64,000 nt of DNA, from assembly GCA_950295325.1 (NCBI GenBank), contig OX485808.1:4776501-4840500 (forward strand). The letters run 5' to 3'. Both the position numbers and the translations under genes were made by a program. Origin of the DNA: Polytrichum commune. Taxonomy: Eukaryota > Streptophyta > Polytrichopsida > Polytrichales > Polytrichaceae. Below the pieces are notes generated by a model. That model was not told where the DNA came from. It was given only the letters and a program-made list of their open reading frames with translations, and searched no databases. Below, piece by piece: positions 20,644 through 39,828 of this stretch (position 1 is the first letter of the stretch; each line of letters begins with the position of its first letter).

Positions 20644-20928
20644 ACACAACTTCCATGCCACGAAAAGATGAAACGAGCCACCGGACAATCTGAGGGCTTC
20701 CACATAACCACTTATTTCGACACCGGATTCGAAAACATAAGCAAAAGAGTTTTCCAAAGTGCGTGCCTCGATTGTCTACACAAGATGAACACACTTCTTA
20801 GTATGGATTTCAATTTATTCAAACCCGATTGATAATGGTTCAAACCAAATTACTAACAATTAGGTAGGCTTTCCCAAGCTACACCTCAAACACCTGCTCA
20901 AAGATGAATGAACACCATTACAACAATT

Positions 20929-21413
20929 AATTGCATATGAATATTTGTGAAAGTAGAAGGCATGATCCAAATGTGTAAATATAAATACTAAATCAACACA
21001 CAAATTTAAGTATCATTTGAGAATGACAAAGATATTAATCTCAAATGGTAAGTCACAAAAATCATAATTTCAATGTTAATGAGGATTTTGTAATGTTTTT
21101 GACCTCCAAGTTAATAACGTGCTATATTGATGGTTTCACTTTCAGAATGAAATCCCAATCAATTGCTTATTTACTAATGAGAAGTACACATATATATTGG
21201 ATTTCACACATGTAAGGTGAAATGCACTCAATATGGGATTTGTAGTTAAGCAACCTTCATGAATGCAAGGGCAATGTGCTTCTCTTGAAGTCTGGTGGGG
21301 CGGGTAGCACATTTCGGTCAGGTTCAAAAATTTATGTGGAGGTTGCCCTAGGCCAGATCTGACACCCTCAAAAGGTTGTGGGGGTGTTTAACATCCGTCC
21401 ATAGCAAGTGCAA
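20929..21413 (+). repeat. Single arm of foldback family, in copy B
   Basis: Positions 20929-21413 match the right arm of the foldback element (52184-52666) at moderate identity: gaatgacaaag, aaatggtaagtcacaaaaat, tattggatttcacac and a gggggtgtttaacatccgtc terminus against gggggaacttaacgtcctcc. The same arm is in copy C at about 34710-35185. The opposite arm is absent here. Confidence 0.65.
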
Positions 21414-22685
21414 ACAACATTTCGCCTAGCAAATGCAAACAATATTTCAAATGCCTTTTCTAAATAGCCCACTTCTCCTTGAATATGAAACAGACGATTG
21501 GTACAAGATTCTTAGCAAATCCAAATTGATGCCATAGTCATGCGTACTACTTCGGATGATCAATATACTATATTGATTATTCCAATTAGTGCGTGTGGTA
21601 CTAAAACTTGAACTTGCACTATTTTTCCAAGTCTCAAAATTGGTGGAGGCTCAATTTTTCACTGAGTCATACTATGTCATGAATACATGCTCCTTTACCA
21701 TACATTTTGGGAAAATTAGTATATGCTCTCAAGTATTTGTAGAGTGATAAAAAAAAATTATATGCAAATGCATGTTGGTCAGTGAATAAATAATACCATG
21801 ATGAATAGTGTTGGTGATTCTAGTGAACAAGGTTGCTAATGACTAATAATTTGAATGAATAGTGTCACTACTTTCACTGAATAATGCTGCTATGAATATA
21901 TGCTCTTTTCAATGAATAGTGTGGAACTAGGCAATGATTCCTAGATCTCCTGATGGCATTAATTTAATAACGTATAGAAATTCAGTATCACCTTCACTAA
22001 TTTTGCACACACACTATCAGCCAACCCTCACTACATCGGATGATTTGCGTACCACTATTGCTAGGGTCAAGTGGAGAGAAACCATAAGTTACTTTAGCTT
22101 TCACTTTTAGTTAATGTAGCTCTACACAAATTATCTCGTTCAATGAGGGTTGGCTAATAGAGCGTCACTGTGGGAAATTAGTGAAGGTGAAACTAAATTT
22201 CTTCATGCTATGAAATTAGTGCCACAGGAAGAACTAGGGGTTCATGACCCCAAAGTTCCTCCTCACTTAGCACTCATTTGATACTCTCACTAGATGGTTT
22301 ATTCACAACGCTACCATACTACTTTATAAGACATGAAGTTGCTATTATTGTTACACCATCAAGTATGATTCTTAAAGTCCCGACCTCAAACTTCAAAGCA
22401 TCTTAGAATATACACTAATACTCTTGACAAGTACGGTAAATGAACATGTGTTCATGAATTTAGTATCACTTGGTGAAAACTTAGCTCACTATTGTTGAGA
22501 TTTGGCATAAGACTGTGAACTTTGGGAATTAGTCCCACACTCACTAAATGGGATAATCAATGTACATTTACTTCACCACAAGCCATATAACTATATCATT
22601 GGATGTCTCGACGTCCTCTAGGCCTCAAGGCATTTCTCATCCATGCGGAGGACTATCGTTCACACCTCCCATTTAAGCGATTTGG

Positions 22686-24281
22686 ATGTATTATTTCATC
22701 CACTGTACCAGAATGAATGACATCATCCGTACATCCGTGGATGAACTTGTGACGCAAGCGGGATGTTTCTGGAAGTTTATCTCCAAGTTACCACACGTTT
22801 CGCTTTTACTTTTTCTCCAAGTTACCAAATGTTTCCCTTTGACCTTCGCTCCAAGTTACCACACGTTTCGCTTTTACTTTCGCTCCAAATTACCAGTCCA
22901 TTTTAAAAGCGTGGGTCTCCCATTTGTTTACTCTTATTTTGCTTTCGCGATTGTCGAGTCTACGGTTCTTCGCTGCAGCGCCGGACTTGCTTCCGTTGCA
23001 TCGTTCTCAGCAGTCGCTGAATTGCATCCTCCTGCATACCCACATAATTCAACACATTCTCCTCGCTATCGGTTTGCTTCCATGGCTTCTCATCTTGAGC
23101 AAGCCCTGGATCAGGCCGATGCCCATATCACTCTTACGTTTGTGGACGCTTCCCTCAACCCCGAGCCTGAGCAAATGCTCAGAATCTCTGAAATCAGCAA
23201 ACCCTCAGTTAAGGCGAACAAGCCTGGCATTATTGCTGCCGCCTCAAAAATATCTCGCCCGCCCATGGATGTTGTCGGTGCAAATTTGAAGGCCCTGGAA
23301 GCAAAGGCCACCTCTGATGAGATCAGCAAGCCGTTGCTAAACAATGTGAACGAGCCGGCTTGCATTGCAATAACCTCAACATCCGCGGCCTCCATGGATG
23401 CCATTGAATCAGATATGAAATTGAAGGGCGTGAAAGAAAGTGAGGGTGCCGTGGTTTCGTTGATCACAACGGCTGGCAAGCGTAAACGTTGCTTTGCACA
23501 AACTGATGATCGTGTGGCCAAGCTTTGCAAGCCTAACATCGGAGTTCAAGTGCAAAAAATTGTCACCTCCGAGATCAGTAAGTCGGTATTGTGTGATGGA
23601 AACCAGCCTTGCACTAATGCTGCAACCTCACCATCCACGCCCTCCATGGATGCTATTGATATGTATTTGAAGGGCGTGAAAGAAAAGCGGCCAGTGGCTT
23701 CGCTCCCAACGACCACGCTAAAGTCCTGCTTTGCACAAACTTGTCCTGTGGCCAAGCTTCGCCTTCAAGTGGACAAGAAGCTACGCCACCTCATCAAACC
23801 AGATGAGAGCTTGAAGAGCGGGGACCATGCAATGAAACGGTACATAAAACTGTTGGATATGGACCTCCCCGGTGGAGACCGTTCCTCTGTTCGAGATGCT
23901 TGTTTGGCTCTCAACCCCCTGCTCAACACCAACAGTCTGTCCAAGATCGAGTGCTTCATGAGGCACAGAGGATTGCATGTGCTGTACGAGATGCTCCGAT
24001 ATTTTCTACCCATATTTGAGGGTAGGCCAGTCCTACGCAAGGTAATGAAAGCCTTGCAACACCTGCACGATCGCAACAGGTTGGGCGTGGAACACATGGC
24101 GTGCGATGCACCTCGATTCTGCATGCTGAAATTCTCTAAACTGCTCTTCGACCTCTCGGAGCACGAGGACCCAGAGGTGCGCACCAGGGCTCGCAGTTTC
24201 CAGGGGCTCAGATTCTCTATCCCCAAAATGCATCCATCACATGCGAAATGCTGTTCGTGGGAGCGCCACACAAGACACTAA
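22686..24281 (+). CDS. Chimeric SET2-like protein, copy B (531 aa)
   Basis: The frame is open for 531 codons. From about 168 to 360 there are three degenerate repeats: EISKP, NEP or NQP, S-MDAIDM-LKGVKE, then KRCFAQT and VAKL. From about 362 to 515 lies a conserved helical block: KKLRHLIKPDES, GLHVLYEMLRYFLPIF, PVLRKVMKALQHL and LLFDLSEHEDPEVRTRARSF. This order recalls the region near the C terminus of plant SET2-type H3K36 methyltransferases (ASHH2/SDG8); a TFIIS/IWS1-type helical domain is the other possibility. No SET, CW or SRI domain is present. The first 110 residues overlap a short tandem repeat (ctccaagttaccacacgttt, about 22781-22900) and may be 5' UTR; MASHLEQ at 23081 is a plausible real start. 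It may be a duplicated gene fragment with or without function. Confidence 0.55.
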   Translation: MYYFIHCTRMNDIIRTSVDELVTQAGCFWKFISKLPHVSLLLFLQVTKCFPLTFAPSYHTFRFYFRSKLPVHFKSVGLPFVYSYFAFAIVESTVLRCSAGLASVASFSAVAELHPPAYPHNSTHSPRYRFASMASHLEQALDQADAHITLTFVDASLNPEPEQMLRISEISKPSVKANKPGIIAAASKISRPPMDVVGANLKALEAKATSDEISKPLLNNVNEPACIAITSTSAASMDAIESDMKLKGVKESEGAVVSLITTAGKRKRCFAQTDDRVAKLCKPNIGVQVQKIVTSEISKSVLCDGNQPCTNAATSPSTPSMDAIDMYLKGVKEKRPVASLPTTTLKSCFAQTCPVAKLRLQVDKKLRHLIKPDESLKSGDHAMKRYIKLLDMDLPGGDRSSVRDACLALNPLLNTNSLSKIECFMRHRGLHVLYEMLRYFLPIFEGRPVLRKVMKALQHLHDRNRLGVEHMACDAPRFCMLKFSKLLFDLSEHEDPEVRTRARSFQGLRFSIPKMHPSHAKCCSWERHTRH

Positions 24282-26042
24282 AGATGCAACAGTGGGGCTG
24301 CAACATTGCATGAAACTGTACAATATCAATCATAAGAATGTACAGAAGCAACTCAAAGAAAATGCGGCCAAGCATGTTCATGATGGTGCTCACGATGCCC
24401 AAGCATGATGATCGACTTGCGATACCACTAACAATATTCGTGGGTTAAAGAGCTAGTTAGTCCAAAAGAAGACTAGACACTCTCAATCCTTTCAACCCAC
24501 AAGAAAACGGGCATGTAGATAAATTACGTTGTTACGATGTCAATGAAATGACAGAGTTCGAAATCAATGATGCCCAAGAATGATGATCGACTTGTAGTTC
24601 CAGTAGCAATATTCTTGGGTTAGAGAGCTAGTAACTCCAAAGGAGACTAGAAACTCTCAATCCTTTCAACCCATCAGAAAATTGGGTATGTACATATTAT
24701 ACTTTGTCACGATGTCAATAAAATGACATTGGTTCCGAATCCATGTTGCACTTTGCAATTGTTGTTGAGCAGCTAAGTGGAGTACTAGTAGAGTACGGTC
24801 TGGAAACTTGAAATGCTCATCTTCATGAATCGGGATTGCTAACTCGAGACAAATTCGATGCAACTTCCAAAACTGTATGTGCATTTTGAAGTGCTCATAA
24901 TGTTAGGGTTGCGTACTTTCAGTGGGTGCATTCAAGTTTATGTTGGCGATCTTCTTTGGGTGAGGTACCCCGGGCCTAATTATGATTGTGCTTATTAATT
25001 GAAATCCAATAACTACTATTGGGAGGCACACCTATAGAGTATCGTGGATCACAAAACCCGAAGACAATGACACAGAACACATGTCCTGAGATTGACGTTT
25101 CTGGGTAGGATGATCGGAAACGCCGGAACGATCCATTTGGAGATGAAGTGGATGCACCGATTTGCTATGAAGCTGAATTGGCGAAGTTGTAAGAGCAGGT
25201 GCGTTCCGAACCTTGGTGACGTTTGCTGGTCCCTGCGTTGCTTTCTCAGTTTCTTCCACTTGCAGGCACTCGGAACAGTTTCATCGTCGAGCTTTACCAT
25301 TGAGTTGTGCAACTGATGTCAGTAGCAAAGTGATGCCAGATGCTTTGTTGGATTTGTTGTGGTTAAGACCAATTGAGGAAGGAGGACACACATGTCCTAC
25401 ACAAACTGCATCTGCGAACTCCTCTGTTTGGATTCTTGGATACTTGATAGTGGATACAATTCAAGCACGACTGGACCAAAGCCCCATCCATATACAGAAC
25501 ATGCTGAAGTGCATGTTAATGCCAGTATACTCCGACAGATTTGTATGCTGCAATACTATAATGTGGCAGAATTTGCAGAGACGATTATGACAATATCCAA
25601 ACAGCTATGAAAGTGAGATCTAGTCGTTCAGGAGATGCCAGCATGATTATAAGATCGGAAAGTAGTGTATTGATTTTGGTTGGCGTATATGGGCATCGTA
25701 ACTAACATTTCTGGACGATTCAAATTTCTGCAATGTGTTGGGATATGTTGGAAGTGTATGGATGGAGGCGCCCATGGAATGCAGGAAAGCACGAAGCCGA
25801 GATTTGCCAAAGCATGGCAATTTCCGAGTGGTGGGGCACATCATCATGGAAGATTTTTGCACTTATTACTGCCATGTGTCGCACAGGTGAAGGCTGGGTG
25901 CAAGAATCTTCGGCGGGATGGAAACCGTGTGATGCGAGCATGGTTCGTTTCGTTAATAGCACGTTGTGGTGCCGCAGTTTGTGCTCAAACAACGATTGCG
26001 GTTGGTGTTTTGTGACGGTCTTAAGCATGGATAGAGTGGCCA
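24282..26042 (+). other. 3' flank of copy B, no gene recognised
   Basis: This stretch is nearly identical to 38005-39771 and matches copy A in two pieces (9250-9960 inverted, 17091-18150 direct). Many short frames are open on both strands but none resembles a known protein, so I treat it as duplicated non-coding sequence. Repeats ccttgggttagagagctag occur twice (about 24446 and 24618) with their flanks, an internal direct repeat of about 180 bases. Confidence 0.5.
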
Positions 26043-26807
26043 TACACCAATGTCACTGTTGTGGACTGCCTTCATCAGGTTTTCAAATTCCAACTACACT
26101 ACAGTTTACCTGTCTGAAAACATATGAAACGCTTAGAATTATAGTAAGCATGCAATCTCAATCAAGATTCATTTGGACATCTGAAACATGTAACTCGTCA
26201 TTGAATAACCCGTCACCATATGAACTGGTTGAATTTGAGAAGTAACCAGTTGAAGTTCAAGACTTCAAGAAAATTACCCATCATCTAAAAAGGAATTTTT
26301 GGTTGTGAGCATTTAATTCTGTGAGTTTTCATTAATTATCGTTTTGATGTGGTTTCTGGTTTCTGGTTTCTGGGTTTAAGGTGGTGATCTGAGTCAAATG
26401 TAATTTTAGTTTGTGAGAGCGATGCGGAGAATTTTGCGAATTCCGATCTGCGATGGATAGGACAATTGGTAGGTAGCTCCGTTGGTGGACTTGACTTCAT
26501 TATTGGGAGCTTTCACTAAAGATTGGACACCTATCTGTGCTAAATCTAACCTCTCGGTGCTCTTCACTTTTGTTTTGGATCCTCTTCGACAGATTCTCGT
26601 TTTCTTTTTGGGCCATAGTACTTATGGGAGATTTCATTGTGGCACATTCAAATTGCTGCAGACAAGTTCTTCCACATTTCGGATGGAAAATTTCATGTCG
26701 TTTTCTCTCAATGTCTTGGAGTTGAGCATCTGAGCTAGAATTTGAACTAGAGTTGAGCATTTGAGCTAGAATTTTTTGGTTTGAGCTAGAGTTGAAAGCC
26801 ATAAAAG
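26043..26807. other. Junction between copy B and piggyBac locus
   Basis: No supported gene. It contains short repeats: ggtttctggtttctggtttc near 26350 and gagctagaattttttggttt with variants at 26732-26790. It may be 5' flank of the transposase locus that follows. Confidence 0.4.
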
Positions 26808-28001
26808 ATGGCCATTGTCCCTGGAGAGGATCACACTGTTCTATCTGAAGCGAGAGTTGCTGTGGCAGCTTGGGTGAGAGAAGATTTACAAAAATTAGAT
26901 GATGTTATAGCGGACCTTGTTTCCCTGTTGGATGAGGATATTTTGGTCACAGCTCCGTGACCAAAGGGTGTGAAATTGCCAAAAAAGTCGGAGGCATGGA
27001 ACTTGCGATATTTGTGGAGGCATGGAACTTGCGATATTTGTGGAGGCGTGTGGTGGTGCATCGGTTGGGGTGGCGCCAACGACAAAGCGAGGGAGACGAG
27101 GGATCCTTTACATCAAGTGTAAATTCTGCACTGAGGCGCTTGTGGCCGGACCGAGCCAGCGAGGACAAGAACGATGGACAAAGCTTGCAAGCAGTGTAAA
27201 ACCACCCTTCCCTTTGTCATTATCAACATTTCTGGCGCCGGCAGTTCGATTGTGAATGTGGGTTGTGATCATGTTGTTGTTCGTAGTGAAATTAGGATGT
27301 CCTCTAAACTAGTATGTCCCGGGTCCACGAGTGAAAAATCCTTGTTCACTTCTAATAATGAAAATGAGCCGTTGGGTTCTAATTCTCATTTGGATGTAGT
27401 GGGTTCTCCTAATTTATCGCTAGAGACTCCTCATTTGAAACCGGGCTTGAGATATAATTCTAAATGCCCGTTTATCCCACCATTGCATACAATTGGGTGT
27501 TGTGGTCAAGTTGTGAGGGTCCCGTGTATTGAACTCCCCGATGTCATGTGGTTAGATGCTAATTTTTCACAGTCTGACTACCTCTGGGGAACTGTCATGA
27601 ACGAATATTACGAACCGATCCATGGTTTGACATTTTTCAGCGTCCAGTTCTATAGTATTTTTGGGTTGCCCGATGTATCCGAGGTCATGGTAGAATGGAT
27701 GGATGAAAATGATGATGTCCTTGAAGTGCCCACACAACAAATGTGGGTTCTTTCTGGGAAATATCCTAATGACAATGATAGTGACTACCAACCGAGTGAC
27801 CAAGGAGAGGAGGACCCCCTGGAAACCACAAATACATTGACTCCAAAAACCAGAATTTGGTATATGGGGTCTAATAGGGCGGACCATGAACTTGGCATCG
27901 GATACGGGGATTTTGACTATCTAGTTGGATTATCCAAGAAAGAAAGGTTTACGGAGCACATTTGGAATTCACCGGTATCGTCCATTCCACATGTAGAGTG
28001 A
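26808..28001 (+). pseudogene. Degenerate 5' part of transposase locus
   Basis: An open stretch of 50 codons (MAIVPGEDHTVLSEARVAV) begins at 26808 and ends at a TGA near 26958. A 26-base unit (tggaacttgcgatatttgtg...) is tandemly doubled at 26997-27046. A second frame, 27174-28001, 275 aa, starts MDKACKQCKTTLPF, has an acidic central part (NDNDSDYQPSDQGEEDP) and ends in TGA. Acidic N-terminal parts are common in piggyBac transposases, and the catalytic domain follows directly. I do not recognise specific motifs, so the link rests on position and strand. Frameshifts separate it from the catalytic part. Confidence 0.4.
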
Positions 28002-28086
28002 CGAGGTGGGTCCGAAGGTTTTAATGACGGATTGGGGAGTTTGAGAGTTTAGAGGAGTATTTGATGTTGTTTTGGCCGTTAGACAT

Positions 28087-28418
28087 CTTGGGGGGAGGGT
28101 AGTCATTGGTTGGAGTAGCAATATACGTGCGAACAAATGATAGGGTATTTTAAAAACATGGGAGCAAAAATTATAATTGGACTTAAAAATAATATAGGGT
28201 ATCAAAAATGGCACTGGACATCTTTGAAGTACTATAGGGTATGAAATAATAAGTAATTTGGAATTATAAGTAATGCAAGCCATTTTTTTATTAACCCAAA
28301 GTAGAAATTTACATAATGATAGCATGTGAAAAAAAAATTGAAAGTAATACCCCCTATAAAATAGTGGTTGTTCGCACCCATATCCTTAACTTTTTAACAC
28401 ACTGTCCCCCCCCCTGAG
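28087..28418. mobile_element. 332-bp G/C-tailed MITE, element 1
   Basis: The left end CTTGGGGGGAGGGTAGTC and right end ...GTCCCCCCCCCCTGAG form a short G/C inverted terminus. The flanks TTAGACAT at 28079-28086 and 28419-28426 are an exact 8-bp target-site duplication. Inside are four TAGGGTAT-type motifs. It interrupts the piggyBac gene: removing the element and one TSD copy joins upstream coding-like sequence (ESLEEYLMLFWPLD) to MMHKIVDNN in frame. Confidence 0.9.
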
Positions 28419-28424
28419 TTAGAC

Positions 28425-29562
28425 ATGATGCACAAAATTGTTGATAATAACCACATAACTACAAATAAAGATGAACCAAGGTATAGCAAAACCGTCAAAT
28501 GTGAGTGGTTAGTACGCAAGCATAATACGTTGTATTCCCAATATTGGCAGCCCGAGAAAAACCTTACCATTGATGAGATGATGATAAAGTTTTGCGAGAA
28601 ATATTCACCTATTAGACAATATATGAAGGCAAAACCCACTCAATATGGCATTAAAATTTGGTGTTTAGCAAATAGTGTGTCAAAGTATGTCCAAAAAATG
28701 GAAATTTATTACGATGAAAATGAAGAATATGAAGGTGAAGATCAAAATACCGGTTACAAAGTGGTGACTAGTTTAGTGAGCGGGTTGGAGCACGTGGGAC
28801 ATGTGATCACTTGCGATAATTGGTTTACAAGTTCAATTTTATTTTGGAATCTTTTGAAGCTCGGTTTCAGAGCTACTGGGACTTGTAAAACCAATAGGCG
28901 AGGTTGGCCAAGTGCATTGACAATTAACAAGGGTAAAGCCGTTAGAACAGTTTCTCGTGGTATAATGTGGTGGCGAATGCACGCATCACATCAATTGGCC
29001 GCTATCAATTGACTTGACAACAAACCGGTGACAATTTTGACTACGGCTATGTCTCCCATAGATGCAACAAATGACATGTTTGTGGGTAGATGACATAAAA
29101 AACATCCCTTGTTCACCCGTATTAGTACATTACTAAGACCACATACAGGGAGTAGATGTGCAAGATCAATTGCGGGGCAATTATTTTATACAAACACGGG
29201 ATTACAAATGGTGGCATAGAATTTTGTTACATCTATTAGATACATCTCTTGTCAATGCATATATTTTGTACCATGCTCGTATGCAAAGGATGGATGAAAG
29301 TGTAATGAGCCGAACAAAATTTCACTATGAAGTGGCCACCAAAATGTGTATGTCCAGTGTGCAGCACATGTGTGTCATTCCTCATTGAGAGGGCATTCCC
29401 AACCCGGATGCCACGCATTATACCTTCTTTTGGACACGCAACAAGGGAAAGGTAACGCAGAGAAAGTGTGTTATATGCGGGAAGCGGCAACAATTCTATT
29501 GCCTCACATGTGGAGACATTCCAGTTTATATGGGCGATTGCTTTGTGGCACACCATAGTTGA
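28425..29562 (+). pseudogene. piggyBac-like transposase, tandem copy 1
   Basis: The 195-codon frame 28425-29012 covers the piggyBac catalytic core. NLTIDEMMIKF carries the first aspartate (28572-28574), TQYGIKIWCL follows, and ITCDNWFTS carries the second (28815-28817). A frame shift follows near 29100-29150. GVDVQDQLRG then gives the third aspartate (29155-29157), followed by KWWHRILLHLLDTSLVNAYI. The C terminus, reached after an in-frame TGA at 29386, is the expected cysteine-rich finger: CVICGKRQQFYCLTCGD, CFVAHH. Further TGA codons at 29010 and 29091 fall where tryptophan is expected. All three catalytic aspartates remain, but the gene is dead as read. The same orientation and sequence recur 2573 bases downstream. 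Confidence 0.85.
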
Positions 29563-30658
29563 TGATCGTGTACTATTTGCATGTCATTTGCGATTTTTGT
29601 TGAGACTTTTTTCCAAGTCCATATGTATCATGATTTATGTGCATTCTAGTATGAGTAAGGATTTATAAGGGTGAAGAATGTAAGGGTGATTTTTTTTTTT
29701 TTTTTTGTTACTTATTACCTCCCACCTTTCCGAGGCAATAAAAGCCTAGCATTAGGAGAAGAGCCCGAGTGATTGGAAGTGGGGAAAGGGGGCCTCAATC
29801 CTTGAGGTGGTTTAACTAATTTTAGAAGAGCATTGATAGTGTGTCATGAGCCGGCCCCATGCTCCAAACTGGGTTGGACATGGGACACTAACAAAAATTT
29901 CAGTTTTTGGGCCCAATCTCATTGCTTGGAGACTTCAGAGTCCCATGTCTTTTTTTCCACACCTCATGATTTAACGAAACAAATTCCACATGAGGGTCAT
30001 GATGTTCTTTACATGTGGTAAAAATTTCAAATGTTTTGGAGCACTTTTAAGCAATCCGATTCCAGCATAAGTATGAAGTACCCCCTGCCCAAACAATTTC
30101 CATCAATCTTCTCAACGGTGGCATTTTCTAAAAAATTATGCGATCTTGTTGATCTTTTTTTCATAAACAAACTATGTAAGTCTTCTTTAGTTTCAACGGT
30201 GCCGATGGTGAAATTACCCCACACTAATAAGAAATTGAGCTTGCTACAAGAGCTAATCAAGAAAACATGACTTAAACTAAAACACCCCCGGTCCTTTAGG
30301 GGTTAAGGGAAAATGTTCACTTGGCCCCAACTCTTGGTAGAAAAACAAGAGGTTCACGGATGGTAGTCCACATCTAAAAATTGATTACCGAATAAGGGGT
30401 GAGTCCCAAAAACAAAGTAAGAGGATTGGTTCCCCTCCTATGAACTATAAGGTCCGTGGTGAGAGGAGCTAACCATTAGCATGGCGGAATACGAAGGGTT
30501 AACGCTCGTAACCTTTGCTAGGAATGAAAATTAGCAAGATGGTCAAGGGGGGCTAGTAAGGGTTGCGACCAAAAGACTCTATTAATTCTCCAAACTATTC
30601 AACAATATTCTTCACATTTTTTACAAGACATTGTCCCTAGGTGCTAATATACCTAAAC
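29563..30658 (+). other. 3' part of piggyBac tandem unit 1
   Basis: This non-coding stretch contains a T tract (about 29692-29707) and sequence up to ACCTAAAC at 30651-30658. It is repeated almost base for base at 32136-33231. No gene recognised; it is probably the 3' portion of the original element or its flank. Confidence 0.6.
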
Positions 30659-30991
30659 CTCGGGGGGGGGGGTAGTCATTGGTTGGAGTAGCAATATACG
30701 TGCGAACAAATGATAGGGTATTTTAAAAACATGGGAGCAAAAATTATAATTGGACTTAAAAATAATATAGGGTATCAAAAATGGCACTGGACATCTTTGA
30801 AGTACTATAGGGTATGAAATAATAAGTAATTTGGAATTATAAGTAATGCAAGCCATTTTTTTATTAACCCAAAGTAGAAATTTACATAATGATAGCATGT
30901 GGAAAAAAAATTGAAAGTAATACCCCCTATAAAATAGTGGTTGTTCGCACCCATATCCTTAACTTTTTAACACACTGTCCCCCCCCCTGAG
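30659..30991. mobile_element. 333-bp G/C-tailed MITE, element 2 (hybrid)
   Basis: The same family as 28087-28418. Its left flank is ACCTAAAC (30651-30658) but its right flank is TTAGACAT (30992-30999), so it has no matching target-site duplication. The left terminus reads CTCGGGGG like element 3. From 30704 on, internal variants (tgcgaacaaa, ttggacttaaaaa) match element 1. It is a recombination product of elements 1 and 3. Confidence 0.9.
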
Positions 30992-30997
30992 TTAGAC

Positions 30998-32135
30998 ATG
31001 ATGCACAAAATTGTTGATAATAACCACATAACTACAAATAAAGATGAACCAAGGTATAGCAAAACCGTCAAATGTGAGTGGTTAGTACGCAAGCATAATA
31101 CGTTGTATTCCCAATATTGGCAGCCCGAGAAAAACCTTACCATTGATGAGATGATGATAAAGTTTTGCGAGAAATATTCACCTATTAGACAATATATGAA
31201 GGCAAAACCCACTCAATATGGCATTAAAATTTGGTGTTTAGCAAATAGTGTGTCAAAGTATGTCCAAAAAATGGAAATTTATTACGATGAAAATGAAGAA
31301 TATGAAGGTGAAGATCAAAATACCGGTTACAAAGTGGTGACTAGTTTAGTGAGCGGGTTGGAGCACGTGGGACATGTGATCACTTGCGATAATTGGTTTA
31401 CAAGTTCAATTTTATTTTGGAATCTTTTGAAGCTCGGTTTCAGAGCTACTGGGACTTGTAAAACCAATAGGCGAGGTTGGCCAAGTGCATTGACAATTAA
31501 CAAGGGTAAAGCCGTTAGAACAGTTTCTCGTGGTATAATGTGGTGGCGAATGCACGCATCACATCAATTGGCCGCTATCAATTGACTTGACAACAAACCG
31601 GTGACAATTTTGACTACGGCTATGTCTCCCATAGATGCAACAAATGACATGTTTGTGGGTAGATGACATAAAAAACATCCCTTGTTCACCCGTATTAGTA
31701 CATTACTAAGACCACATACAGGGAGTAGATGTGCAAGATCAATTGCGGGGCAATTATTTTATACAAACACGGGATTACAAATGGTGGCATAGAATTTTGT
31801 TACATCTATTAGATACATCTCTTGTCAATGCATATATTTTGTACCATGCTCGTATGCAAAGGATGGATGAAAGTGTAATGAGCCGAACAAAATTTCACTA
31901 TGAAGTGGCCACCAAAATGTGTATGTCCAGTGTGCAGCACATGTGTGTCATTCCTCATTGAGAGGGCATTCCCAACCCGGATGCCACGCATTATACCTTC
32001 TTTTGGACACGCAACAAGGGAAAGGTAACGCAGAGAAAGTGTGTTATATGCGGGAAGCGGCAACAATTCTATTGCCTCACATGTGGAGACATTCCAGTTT
32101 ATATGGGCGATTGCTTTGTGGCACACCATAGTTGA
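30998..32135 (+). pseudogene. piggyBac-like transposase, tandem copy 2
   Basis: A second copy of 28425-29562, offset by 2573 bases and practically identical. It has the same catalytic aspartates, frame shift, TGA codons and cysteine-rich tail. The defects are therefore older than the duplication, and the duplication itself is recent. The neighbouring MITEs bound the unit on both sides. Confidence 0.85.
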
Positions 32136-33231
32136 TGATCGTGTACTATTTGCATGTCATTTGCGATTTTTGTTGAGACTTTTTTCCAAGTCCATATGTA
32201 TCATGATTTATGTGCATTCTAGTATGAGTAAGGATTTATAAGGGTGAAGAATGTAAGGGTGATTTTTTTTTTTTTTTTTGTTACTTATTACCTCCCACCT
32301 TTCCGAGGCAATAAAAGCCTAGCATTAGGAGAAGAGCCCGAGTGATTGGAAGTGGGGAAAGGGGGCCTCAATCCTTGAGGTGGTTTAACTAATTTTAGAA
32401 GAGCATTGATAGTGTGTCATGAGCCGGCCCCATGCTCCAAACTGGGTTGGACATGGGACACTAACAAAAATTTCAGTTTTTGGGCCCAATCTCATTGCTT
32501 GGAGACTTCAGAGTCCCATGTCTTTTTTTCCACACCTCATGATTTAACGAAACAAATTCCACATGAGGGTCATGATGTTCTTTACATGTGGTAAAAATTT
32601 CAAATGTTTTGGAGCACTTTTAAGCAATCCGATTCCAGCATAAGTATGAAGTACCCCCTGCCCAAACAATTTCCATCAATCTTCTCAACGGTGGCATTTT
32701 CTAAAAAATTATGCGATCTTGTTGATCTTTTTTTCATAAACAAACTATGTAAGTCTTCTTTAGTTTCAACGGTGCCGATGGTGAAATTACCCCACACTAA
32801 TAAGAAATTGAGCTTGCTACAAGAGCTAATCAAGAAAACATGACTTAAACTAAAACACCCCCGGTCCTTTAGGGGTTAAGGGAAAATGTTCACTTGGCCC
32901 CAACTCTTGGTAGAAAAACAAGAGGTTCACGGATGGTAGTCCACATCTAAAAATTGATTACCGAATAAGGGGTGAGTCCCAAAAACAAAGTAAGAGGATT
33001 GGTTCCCCTCCTATGAACTATAAGGTCCGTGGTGAGAGGAGCTAACCATTAGCATGGCGGAATACGAAGGGTTAACGCTCGTAACCTTTGCTAGGAATGA
33101 AAATTAGCAAGATGGTCAAGGGGGGCTAGTAAGGGTTGCGACCAAAAGACTCTATTAATTCTCCAAACTATTCAACAATATTCTTCACATTTTTTACAAG
33201 GCATTGTCCCTAGGTGCTAATATACCTAAAC

Positions 33232-33568
33232 CTCGGGGGGGGGGTAGTCATTGGTTGGAGTAGCAATATACGTGCAAACAAATGATAGGGTATTTTAAAA
33301 ACATGGGAGCAAAAAATTATAATTGGGCTTAAGAGTAATATAGGGTATCAAAAATGGCACTGGACATCTTTAAAGTACTATAGGGTATGGAATAATAGGT
33401 AATTTGGAATTATAAGTAATGCAAGCCATTTTTCTATTAACCCAAAGTAGAAATTTACATAATGATAGCATGTGAAAAAAAAAATTTGAAAGTAATACCC
33501 CCCTATAAAATAGTGGTTGTTCGCACCTATATCCTTAACTTTTTAACACACAGCCCCCCCCCCCCGAG
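33232..33568. mobile_element. 337-bp G/C-tailed MITE, element 3
   Basis: The termini CTCGGGGGGGGGG and CCCCCCCCCGAG are inverted repeats. The flanks ACCTAAAC at 33224-33231 and 33569-33576 are an exact 8-bp target-site duplication. It differs from element 1 at several internal sites (tgcaaacaaa, gggcttaagag, gaataataggtaa). Confidence 0.92.
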
Positions 33569-33576
33569 ACCTAAAC

Positions 33577-33934: not shown

Positions 33935-36411
33935 ACAAAATGGTGTATACACAACACACACACACACACACACAAAACCTCAATCTCTGTAACATGGCAC
34001 ATGGGCAAGCTCTAAGCCTGGCACATGGAATAGCGTCTTGTGTGGTTTGCTATATGGCTACTAGCGCAAGATTGCAAATATTCTCCATTTGGCTAAACAA
34101 TTTGGCCACATGGTTGATACGAATTGCCTGTCCTCCACCCACACACCGCCACCCTGAATCACTTACAAATATCAACAAACCCATCAACCAAAATACCATC
34201 CCCAAGCCTATCAATCATCAAGGATCGAGATATAGATGTGAATTTGCCATTCATGGCCCCACTGTCACTGCAAACACTAGGAATTTCTTTGCTCAATACA
34301 ACCTCAACAACCACAACCTGCTTAATGATCCACATCCTTGTAGACTTGTATTACACAACCAAAACCCTCCCCAATGGCCCTTGAGAGGCCAGAATTGGTC
34401 TTGGGACACCATCCTCATTTCACACGACTTCCAAGACACGAAAAGATGAAACAAGACACCGGACAATCTGAGGGCTTCCACATCACTACTCATTTTGACA
34501 TCGGATTCAAAAACATAAGCAAAAGAGTTTTCCAAAGTGCGTGCTTCGATTGTCTACACAAGATGAACACACTTCTTAGTATGGATTTAAATTTATTCAA
34601 ACCCGATTGATAATGGTTCAAACCAAATTACTAACAATTAGGTAGGCTTTCCCAAGCTACACCTCAAACACCTGCTCAAAGATGAATGAACACCACTACA
34701 ACAATTAATTGCATATGAATATTTGTGAAAGTAGAAGGCATGATCCAAATGTGTAAATATAAATACTAAATCAACACACAAATTTAAGTATCATTTGAGA
34801 ATGACAAAGATATAATCTCAAATGGTAAGTCACAAAAATCATAATTTCAATGTTAATGAGGATTTTGTAATGTTTTTGACCTCCAAGTTAATTACGTGCT
34901 ATATTGATGGTTTCACTTTCGGAATGAAATCCCAATCAATTGCTTATTTACTAATGAGAAATACACATAAATATTGGATTTCACACAGGTAAGGTGAAAT
35001 GCACTCAATATGGGATTTGTAGTTAAGCAACCTTCATGAATGCAAGGGCAATGTGCTTTTCTTGAAGCTTTGTGGGGCAAGTAGCACGTTTTGGTCAGGT
35101 TCAAAAATTTATGTGGAGGTTGCCCCAGCCCGGATCTGACACCCTCGAAAGTTTGTGGGGGTGTTTAACGTCCATCCATAGCAAGTGCAAACAACATTTC
35201 ACCAAAAGGTAGATGGGTCTTAAATGGTTGCCTTTTCTAACTAGCCCACTTCTCCTTGAATATGAAACACACGATTGGTACAAGATTCTTAGCAAATCCA
35301 AATTGATGCCATAGTCATGCGTACTACTTCGGATGATCAATATACTATATTGATTATTCCAATTAGTGCGTGTGGTACTAAAACTTGAACTTGCACTATT
35401 TTTCCAAGTCTCAAAATTGGTGGAGGCTCAATTTTTCACTGAGGCATATTATGTCATGAATACATGCTCCTTTACCATACATTTTGGGAAAATTAGTATA
35501 TACTCTCAAGTATTTGTAGAGAGATAAAAAAAATTATATGCAAATGCATGCTTGTCAGTAAATAATACCATGATGAATAGTGTTGGTGATTCTAGTGAAC
35601 AAGGTTGCTAATGACTAATAATTTGAATGAATATTGTCACTACTTTCAATGAATAATGCTGCTATGAATATATGCTCTTTTCAATGAATAGTGTAGAGTT
35701 AGGCAATGATTTCCTAGATCATTTGATGGCATTAATTTAATAACATATAGAAATTCAATATCACCTTCATTAATTTTGCACACACACTAGGGTCAAGTGG
35801 AGAGAAACCATAAGTTACTTTAGCTTTTACTTTTAGTTTATGTAGCTCTACACAAATTATCTCGTTCAATGAGGGTTGGCTAATAGAGCGTCACTGTGGG
35901 AAATTAGTGAAGGTGAAACTAAATTTCTTCATGCTATGAAATTAGTGCCACAGGAAGAACTAGGGGTTCATGACCCCAAAGTTCCTCCTCACTTAGCACT
36001 CATTTGATACTCTCACTAGATGGTTTATCCACAACGCTACCATACTACTTTATAAGACATGAAGTTATTATTATTGTTACACCATCAAGTATGATTCTTA
36101 AAGTCCCGACCTCAAACTTCAAAGCATCTTAGAATATACACTAATACTCTTGACAAGTACGGTAAATGAACATGTGTTCATGAATTTAGTATCACTTGGT
36201 AAAAACTTAGCTCACTATTGTTGAGATTTGGCATAAGACTGTGAACTTTGGGAATTAGTCCCACACTCACTAAATGGGTTAATCAATATACATTTACTTC
36301 ACCACAAGCCATATAACCATATCATTGAATGTCTCGACGTCCTCTAGGCCTCAAGGCATTTCTCATCCATGCGGAGGACTATCGTTCACACCTCCCATTT
36401 AAGCGATTTGG

Positions 36412-38004
36412 ATGTATTATTTCATCCACTGTACCAGAATGAATGACATCATCCGTACATCCGTGGATGAACTTGTGACGCAAGCGAGATGTTTCTGGAA
36501 GTTTATCTCCAAGTTACCACACGTTTCGCTTTTACTTTTGCTCCAAGATAATTTTACTTTCGCTCCAAGTTACCACACGTTTCCTTTTTACTTTCGCTCC
36601 AAATTACCAGTCCATTTTAAAAGCGTGGGTCTCCCATTTGTTTACTCTTATTTTGCTTTCGCGATTGTCGAGTCTACGGTTCTTCGCTGCAGCGCCGGAC
36701 TTGCTTCCGTTGCGTCGCTCTCAGCAGTCGCTGAATTGGATACTCTTGCATACTCAAATAAATCAACACGTTCTCTTCGCTATCAATTTGCTTCCGTGGC
36801 TTCGCATCTTGAGCAAGCCATGGACCAGGCCGATGCCCATATCACTCTTACGTTTGTGGACGCTTCCCTCAACCCCAAGCTTGAGCAAATGGTCAGAATC
36901 TCTGAATTCAGCAAACCCCCAGTTAATGCGAACAAGCCTTGCGTTATTGCTGCAACTCCAACAATATCTCGCCCGCCCATGGATGTTGTCGGTGAAAACC
37001 TGAAGGCCCTCAAAGAAAAGGCCACCTCTCATGAGATCAGCAAGCCGTTGCTAAACAATGTGAACGAGCCGGCTTGCATTGCAATAACCTCAACATCCGC
37101 GGCCTCCATGGATGCCATTGATATGGAATTGAAGGGCGGGAAAGAAAGTGAGGGTGCCGAGGTTTCGCTGATCACAACGGCTGGCAAGCGCAAACGTTGC
37201 TTTGCACAAACTGATGATCGTGTGGCCAAGCTTTGCAAGCCTAAGATCGGAGTTCAAGTGCAAAAAAATGTCACTGCCGAGATCAGTGAGTCGGTATTGT
37301 GTGATGGAAACCAGCCTTGCACTAATGTTGCAACCTCACCATCCACGCCCTCCATGGATGCTATTGACATGTATTTGAAGGGCGTGAAAGGAAAGCGGCC
37401 AGTGGCTTCGCTCCCAACGACCACGCTAAAGTCCTGCTTTGCACAAACTGGTCCTGTGGCCAAGCTTCGGAAGACCAAAACTCGCCTTCAAGTGCACAAG
37501 AAGCTACGTCACCTCATCAAACCCGACGAGAGCTTGAAGAGCGGGGATCGTGCAATGAATCGTTACATAAAACTGTTGGATATGGATCTCCCCGGTGGAG
37601 ACCGTTCCTCTGTTCGAGATGCTTGTTTGGCTCTCAACCCCCTGCTCAACACCAACAATCTGTCCAAGATCGAGTGCTTCATGAGGCACAGAGGATTGCA
37701 TGTGCTGTACGAGATGCTCCGATATTTTCTACCCATATTTGAGGGTAGGCCAGTCCTACGCAAGGTAATGAAAGCCTTGCAACACCTGCACGATCGCAAC
37801 AGGTTGGGCGTGGAACACATGGCGTGCGATGCACCTCGATTCTGCATGCTGAAATTCTCCAAACTGCTCTTCGACCTCTCGGAGCACGAGGACCCAGAGG
37901 TGCGCACCAGGGCTCGCAGTTTCCAGGGGCTCAGATTCTCTATCCCCAAAATGCATCCATCACATGCAAAATGCTGTTCGTGGGAGCGCCGCACAAGACA
38001 CTAA
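36412..38004 (+). CDS. Chimeric SET2-like protein, copy C (530 aa)
   Basis: An open frame of 530 codons, homologous to copy B throughout, with the same three internal repeats and the same SET2-like C-terminal block (GLHVLYEML, PVLRKVMKALQHL, LSEHEDPEVRTR). Indels against B keep the frame; for example C has RKTKTRLQVHKK where B has RLQVDKK. The likely true start of B (MASHLEQ) is VASHLEQ here (ATG to GTG), so if that is the start, C has lost it or starts elsewhere. Most amino-acid differences from B cluster in about 100 codons around residues 115-215. SET and SRI domains are absent. Confidence 0.5.
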   Translation: MYYFIHCTRMNDIIRTSVDELVTQARCFWKFISKLPHVSLLLLLQDNFTFAPSYHTFPFYFRSKLPVHFKSVGLPFVYSYFAFAIVESTVLRCSAGLASVASLSAVAELDTLAYSNKSTRSLRYQFASVASHLEQAMDQADAHITLTFVDASLNPKLEQMVRISEFSKPPVNANKPCVIAATPTISRPPMDVVGENLKALKEKATSHEISKPLLNNVNEPACIAITSTSAASMDAIDMELKGGKESEGAEVSLITTAGKRKRCFAQTDDRVAKLCKPKIGVQVQKNVTAEISESVLCDGNQPCTNVATSPSTPSMDAIDMYLKGVKGKRPVASLPTTTLKSCFAQTGPVAKLRKTKTRLQVHKKLRHLIKPDESLKSGDRAMNRYIKLLDMDLPGGDRSSVRDACLALNPLLNTNNLSKIECFMRHRGLHVLYEMLRYFLPIFEGRPVLRKVMKALQHLHDRNRLGVEHMACDAPRFCMLKFSKLLFDLSEHEDPEVRTRARSFQGLRFSIPKMHPSHAKCCSWERRTRH

Positions 38005-39828
38005 AGATGCAACAGTGCGGCTGCAACATTGCATGAAACTGTACAATATCAATCATAAGAATGTACAGAAGCAACTCAAGGAAAATGAGGCCAAGCATGT
38101 TCATGATGGTGCCCACGATGCCCAAGCATGATGATCGACTTGCGATACCACTAACAATATTCGTGGGTTAAAGAGCTAGTTAGTCCAAAAGAAGACTAGA
38201 CACTCTCAATCCTTTCAACCCACAAGAAAACGGGCATGTAGATAAATTACGTTGTTACGATGTCAATGAAATGACAGAGTTCGAAATCAATGATGCCCAA
38301 GAATGATGATCGACTTGTAGTTCCAGTAGCAATATTCTTGGGTTAGAGAGCTAGTAACTCCAAAGGAGACTAGAAACTCTCAATCCTTTCAACCCATCAG
38401 AAAATTGGGTATGTACATATTATACTTTGTCACGATGTCAATAAAATGACATTGGTTCCGAATCCATGTTGCACTTTGCAATTGTTGTTGAGCAGCTAAG
38501 TGGAGTACTAGTAGAGTACGGTCTGGAAACTTGAAATGCTCATCTTCATGAATCGGGATTGCTAACTCGAGACAAATTCGATGCAACTTCCAAAACTGTA
38601 TGTGCATTTTGAAGTGCTCATAATGTTAGGGTTGCGTACTTTCAGTGGGTGCATTCAAGTTTATGTTGGCGATCTTCTTTGGGTGAGGTACCCCGGGCCT
38701 AATTATGATTGTGCTTATTAATTGAAATCCAATAACTACTATTGGGAGGCACACCTATAGAGTATCGTGGATCACAAAACCCGAAGACAATGACACAGAA
38801 CACATGTCCTGAGATTGACGTTTCTGGGTAGGATGATCGGAAACGCCGGAACGATCCATTTGGAGATGAAGTGGATGCACCGATTTGCTATGAAGCTGAA
38901 TTGGCGAAGTTGTAAGAGCAGGTGCGTTCCGAACCTTGGTGACGTTTGCTGGTCCCTGCGTTGCTTTCTCAGTTTCTTCCACTTGCAGGCACTCGGAACA
39001 GTTTCATCGTCGAGCTTTACCATTGAGTTGTGCAACTGATGTCAGTAGCAAAGTGATGCCAGATGCTTTGTTGGATTTGTTGTGGTTAAGACCAATTGAG
39101 GAAGGAGGACACACATGTCCTACACAAACTGCATCTGCGAACTCCTCTGTTTGGATTCTTGGATACTTGATAGTGGATACAATTCAAGCACGACTGGACC
39201 AAAGCCCCATCCATATACAGAACATGCTGAAGTGCATGTTAATGCCAGTATACTCCGACAGATTTGTATGCTGCAATACTATAATGTGGCAGAATTTGCA
39301 GAGACGATTATGACAATATCCAAACAGCTATGAAAGTGAGATCTAGTCGTTCAGGAGATGCCAGCATGATTATAAGATCGGAAAGTAGTGTATTGATTTT
39401 GGTTGGCGTATATGGGCATCGTAACTAACATTTCTGGACGATTCAAATTTCTGCAATGTGTTGGGATATGTTGGAAGTGTATGGATGGAGGCGCCCATGG
39501 AATGCAGGAAAGCACGAAGCCGAGATTTGCCAAAGCATGGCAATTTCCGAGTGGTGGGGCACATCATCATGGAAGATTTTGCACTTATGACTGCCTTGAG
39601 TGGCGCACGTGAAGGCTGGGTGCAAGAACCTTCGGCGGGATGGAAAGCGTGTGATGCGAGCATGGTTTGTGTCGTTAATAGCACGTTGTGGTGCCGCAGT
39701 TTGTGCTCAAACAACGATTGCGGTTGGTGTTTTGTGACGTTCTTAAGCATGGATAGAGTGGCCACTGGAATGGGCAAGAGCCCAGTCTTGTGGCCCCCCT
39801 TTTCACATGGGAAACCGCCCCACTTTCC

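Follow-up and report, generated by a model that had tools for sequence, protein, structure and literature searches.

The Bar/roo case of Drosophila is a tandem duplication that carries one transposon between its copies, at the site of recombination, and it originated in two homologous copies of the transposon on different chromatids. We describe a comparable arrangement in Polytrichum commune, in a 64-kb stretch of contig C6 (positions 4776501-4840500; hereafter, the window) of a 408-Mb assembly in 64 contigs, of which C1 to C7 together account for approximately 406 Mb. In the window, three copies of a miniature inverted-repeat transposable element (MITE), here called E1, E2, and E3 from left to right, alternate with two copies of a 2.24-kb unit composed of part of a piggyBac relic and its flank. 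Whereas the Bar unit spans 203.5 kb and includes genes and roo elements, the recombining element here is a MITE of approximately 330 bp whose target-site duplications (TSDs) trace both parents of the middle copy.

Evidence of this type has been described for the Galileo inversion 2z3 of Drosophila buzzatii, for which exchanged TSDs and chimeric elements serve as proof of ectopic recombination and the target sites are single-copy in non-inverted chromosomes (PMC2775673). The Galileo copies were in opposite orientation and produced an inversion, whereas the direct orientation of the MITEs in our window is associated with a duplication; moreover, the uninterrupted sites are allelic in that system but paralogous in ours (PMC2775673). 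In plants, unequal recombination has likewise generated duplications and extra copies at the maize p1 alleles and with Wukong elements, although the portions of these reports used here do not describe exchange between two MITEs with traceable TSDs (PMC2686159, PMC3014980, PMC4528315). Our survey of titles and abstract openings on MITE-mediated tandem duplication with TSD evidence yielded general cases and no MITE twin of this locus. The mechanism is a textbook one, and the locus is a clean worked example of it on a small scale, affecting only transposon relics and flank.

Arrangement of the three elements

E1, E2, and E3 lie in direct orientation with a spacing of 2573 bp. The features of the locus are given below by window position, all on the forward strand (+); numbers beginning with L denote genomic regions compared with the window.

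28079-28086 (+): left TSD of E1, TTAGACAT (octamer search; paralogue read-through)
28087-28418 (+): E1, MITE of 332 bp (boundaries read from the sequence)
28419-28426 (+): right TSD of E1, TTAGACAT (octamer search)
28419-30658 (+): unit 1, 2240 bp, comprising the right TSD of E1, the 3' piggyBac relic, the flank, and the E3 octamer
28427-30306 (+): degenerate 3' part of piggyBac, with its TTAA end at 30303-30306
30651-30658 (+): the TSD octamer of E3, ACCTAAAC, on the left side of E2 (octamer search)
30659-30991 (+): E2, recombinant MITE of 333 bp, left end E3-type and E1-type from 30704
30670-30703 (+): likeliest exchange interval, 34 bp identical in E1 (28097-28130) and E3
30992-30999 (+): the TSD octamer of E1, TTAGACAT, on the right side of E2 (octamer search)
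30992-33231 (+): unit 2, 2240 bp, one substitution relative to unit 1
33224-33231 (+): left TSD of E3, ACCTAAAC (octamer search; paralogue read-through)
33232-33568 (+): E3, MITE of 337 bp (boundaries read from the sequence)
33569-33576 (+): right TSD of E3, ACCTAAAC (octamer search)
26041-28086 (+): unduplicated stretch left of E1, including the 5' piggyBac relic (homology to L004 over 26041-28086 and to L001-L003 over 26717-28086)

The octamer TTAGACAT occurs at 28079, 28419, and 30992 and at one other place in the 64 kb (4767), and ACCTAAAC occurs at 30651, 33224, and 33569 and at three others (5130, 6164, and 14278). The outer elements thus keep their own TSDs and E2 carries one octamer of each, its left and right flanks differing at six of eight positions by eye. 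These positions bear out the original prediction of matching flanks around E1 and E3 and mixed flanks around E2. The intervening 2.24 kb was also copied nearly unchanged, as had been proposed; the only difference between the two units in 2240 bp is A30628 in unit 1 versus G33201 in unit 2.

Alignment of the three elements, the check that had been suggested for the prediction, revealed that E2 does not carry E3 variants throughout. Over E1 28131-28405 (E2 30704-30978), E2 agrees with E1 at all 16 columns in which E1 and E3 differ (12 substitutions and 4 indel columns); G30902, in this E1-type part, is private to E2. To the left, E2 shares C30661 and G30669 with E3, the corresponding bases of E1 being T and A. 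Variants were polarized against 32 family copies, drawn from the best 40 matches listed per query and therefore biased toward well-preserved copies. E1 and E2 share derived states at eight substitutions (28187, 28189, 28226, 28244, 28252, 28288, 28379, and 28405), and E3 has the family state at every one, which shows that the right part of E2 came from E1. The middle element is thus E3-like at its left end and E1-like from 30704, and the hybrid repeat stands at the novel junction, as expected for non-allelic homologous recombination.

Insertion sites and the piggyBac relic

A genome search for a 31-base core of the element, allowing at most one mismatch, returned 1446 matches (745 forward and 701 reverse, E1-E3 included), and the reversed pattern used as a control returned 0. 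The elements have terminal inverted repeats (CTCGGGG...CCCCGAG), a length of approximately 330 bp, a high copy number, and a constant TSD length, as is characteristic of MITEs, and no open frame of at least 120 aa was present inside the copies in the open reading frame list of the window. Perfect 8-bp TSDs flank 30 of the 32 sampled copies (29 by script and L042 by eye). The TSD of L035 has one mismatch, and L031 has a doubtful pair with two mismatches, no better than the pairing that the script assigned to E2 by chance; a few copies have the repeat displaced by one or two bases relative to the element boundary. hAT transposons generate TSDs of 8 bp. The TSD length of this family fits hAT, which makes that superfamily a candidate assignment, and the genome contains many hAT dimerisation domains (150 scored of 1060 candidates), some of which lie in long open frames.

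We compared both insertion sites with paralogous regions. A piggyBac query gave 11 matches beyond the two in the window; eight of these lie in seven regions that were fetched, the three weakest being left out. The E1 site is unbroken in all six regions that span it, with a single octamer followed by GATGC; the octamer is CTAGACAT in three of them and CTAAACAT in the other three. Among these six paralogues, L001, L002, and L003 are mutually approximately 99% identical and hence represent one lineage rather than independent cases. L007, the seventh region, has homology solely to the right of the E1 site. The initial T of both E1 TSD copies is absent from all six octamers, so this base either had mutated by the time of insertion or is peculiar to the window copy. 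The sequence to the right of E3 matches 42 places including itself; of the 41 besides E3, eight were retrieved. All eight have an unbroken E3 site with a single octamer one or two bases off ACCTAAAC by eye; L008, on the same contig approximately 640 kb away, is 96% identical over the joined E3 flanks, and the other seven are 75-81% identical. Taken together, the uninterrupted paralogous sites and the normal TSDs show that E1 and E3 inserted independently and that the E2 arrangement arose secondarily.

The piggyBac relic contains the transposase domain DDE_Tnp_1_7 (PF13843; E = 8.2e-30), and its right end, the only end located, reads ...CTTTAGGGG followed by TTAA in the window and the paralogues. 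Both units lack 246 bp relative to L001 (at approximately 28437/28438 in unit 1), an in-frame loss of 82 codons bounded on each side by TTGT, and both have stops and a frame change. Another stop lies to the left of E1, in the part of the relic that is outside the duplication. The piggyBac copy was thus dead before the duplication, and, because the deletion, stops, and frame change were already present, no working gene was duplicated. What had been described as duplication of a piggyBac gene is instead duplication of the 3' portion of a copy that was dead beforehand, with approximately 350 bp of flank beyond the TTAA at 30303-30306, including a 215-bp stretch that is repeated elsewhere. The 246-bp deletion, with TTGT microhomology, adjoins the E1 insertion (28427-28438 and, in unit 2, 31000-31011), and the deleted stretch is kept in the six paralogues examined.

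Genome-wide, piggyBac is diverse: DDE_Tnp_1_7 matched 118 stretches, several of which may share one element; five lie in 564-aa frames with similar scores, and others in frames of approximately 930-1125 aa. L001-L003 end at TTAA beside differing flanks, and L001 (1291-3603) has a 770-aa open frame; the mutual identity of these copies, together with their differing flanks, suggests recent piggyBac movement. The piggyBac 3' end (approximately 410 bp; 29890-30307 and 32463-32880) matches many places alone, at approximately 94-95% identity among the 40 scored of 2805, and these lone matches are probably short non-autonomous piggyBac derivatives.

Position, age, and mechanism of the exchange

Strictly, the exchange can be bracketed between the left edge of E2 at 30659 and the first firm shared-derived substitution at 30760, an interval of approximately 100 bp (30659-30759). 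C30661, G30669, and G30704 are all common states among the 32 family copies. Because it is E1 that has the rare state at the left markers, and E3 at the 30704 marker (A33276, shared with 1 of the 32 copies), we rejected the proposed 45-bp placement of the crossover as a proof by markers alone. The exchange most likely fell in the 34-bp identical tract at 30670-30703, because few changes have occurred since the duplication. Under a uniform rate, from which the G run may depart, the probability is approximately 1e-5 (upper confidence limit, 2e-4) that two later changes fell within a 13-bp stretch of E1, and approximately 0.02 (upper limit, 0.06) that one fell in the 44 bp surrounding the E3 marker. 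The placement within approximately 45 bp thus holds as likely by the age argument but not as a strict limit. The tract itself is not special, since the longest other identical tracts of E1 and E3 measure 34, 35, 36, and 40 bp. The adjacent G run, given previously as 12-13 bases, has 11 bases in E2 (30662-30672), 10 in E3, and six plus three around an A in E1.

With the three exchange-marking differences at the left end set aside, the repeats differ by two substitutions over 2573 bp, which corresponds to K = 7.8e-4 (95% limits, 0.9e-4 to 2.8e-3). With a plant substitution rate of 7e-9, the age is approximately 56,000 generations (7,000 to 200,000), so the event looks recent. The base of L008 that corresponds to 33201 is G; A30628 of unit 1 is therefore probably derived and arose after the duplication.

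These data point to the following sequence of events. Two MITEs of the same family inserted in direct orientation with approximately 2.24 kb between them. E1, with TSD TTAGACAT, entered a piggyBac copy that was already aging, and E3, with TSD ACCTAAAC, landed in the flank past its end. In a later step, E3 on one chromatid would have aligned with E1 on another; homologous recombination, likeliest in the 34-bp tract near the left ends, would then have produced the order E1, unit, E3/E1 hybrid, unit, E3. The TSDs and the uninterrupted paralogous sites establish the insertions of E1 and E3, and the hybrid element and the tandem duplication can likewise be read from the assembly; from these we infer a reciprocal crossover between sisters or homologues. 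We consider unequal (non-allelic) homologous recombination between E3 and E1 the probable overall explanation and prefer it because it accounts for all of the observations in one step. The unequal crossing-over that was originally predicted is in this respect supported, being the simplest mechanism and having direct precedents.

As controls, we used the four same-orientation pairs 0.4 to 8.3 kb apart, taken from the first 100 of the 1446 matches listed, which span the first 35 Mb of C1; wider pairs (e.g., approximately 16 kb) were left out. All eight elements keep their own TSDs (five perfect and three with one mismatch, by eye), and self-comparison of the four pairs revealed no direct repeat longer than 60 bp except the MITE and no doubled intervening sequence. 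Close MITE pairs alone do not yield the picture seen in the window. In L048, two co-oriented family MITEs, each flanked by a separate TSD, start only 422 bp apart and are a potential substrate for an equivalent event.

Several points weigh against an unequal crossover. C30661, G30669, and G30704 might each reflect a later change in E1 or E3. The left end of the element may also be more mutable than assumed, since T28089 of E1 is rare but not private: L027 starts with CTT and L031 perhaps with CTTT, where the alignment is unsure beside the G run. A28096 of E1 has no counterpart at that column in the 32 copies, but an A occurs elsewhere in the G run in two of the eight control-pair elements (L049 and L051). 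An identity of 34 bp, inside approximately 330 bp of 95% identity, is short for meiotic crossing-over. Finally, the mechanism is judged from a single assembly.

The same product could have arisen without a crossover by gap repair, which we regard as unlikely. After excision of E3 by transposase, synthesis from the left end of the sister's E3 would switch to E1, continue through the unit and E3, and close, leaving an identical hybrid and tandem duplication. The left end of E3 is the place from which such synthesis would proceed, and the switch probably lies no more than approximately 45 bp from it; the hAT dimerisation domains noted above offer a possible transposase source; yet a random exchange would fall this near the left end in approximately 1 of 7 cases (45/332 bp, our arithmetic), membership of the MITE in hAT falls short of proof, and its activity is hypothetical. 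We accordingly give little credence to the idea that the MITE's own transposase started the duplication through E3 excision and a template switch near the cut end.

A false doubling in the assembly, with the contig joined through the MITE, is still less likely. Judged from the assembly alone, the difference at only 1 of 2240 bases between the units would suit such an error, and the two substitutions that distinguish the repeats could be allelic in a heterozygous plant. Against it stand those same two substitutions, the absence of N characters from the window (0 in 64 kb), its location on a 44.65-Mb contig, and the full-length matching of a 951-bp stretch of the unit at these two places only, with no leftover alternative copy. 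Reintegration by homology of a circle carrying one unit and a hybrid MITE, released by recombination between E1 and E3, should give an identical sequence but needs two recombination events where one suffices, and we rate it slightly lower again. An independent third insertion at E2 with a chance match of its flanks was rejected as extremely improbable: a clear TSD flanks 31 of the 32 sampled copies but not E2, both of whose flanks extend into the repeat for 2.2 kb.

Neighbouring sequence and implications

The piggyBac region lies between the copies of a 5.4-kb direct duplication (20644-26042 and 34422-39764) with 95.3% identity. Parts of this sequence are present again at 9-10 kb (in inverted orientation), at 16.5-18.2 kb, and approximately 640 kb away in L008. 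The duplication holds a 530-531 aa open frame, and the frame of the left copy has no Pfam match. Elsewhere, the chlorophyll a/b-binding domain matched 58 times across the genome, as suits a photosynthetic eukaryote, and 14 of the matches listed, with identical domain scores, form a cluster of approximately 95 kb at C5:1751760-1846160.

For the locus described here, one assembly displays both TSDs, relatives of the uninterrupted sites, a polarized hybrid, and a probable post-duplication mutation. Our findings suggest that MITEs of approximately 330 bp with 95% identity can seed tandem duplications in this genome, which contains more than 1000 copies of the family. If the duplication was instead triggered by transposase, MITEs would be active makers of tandem duplications and not passive stretches of homology.

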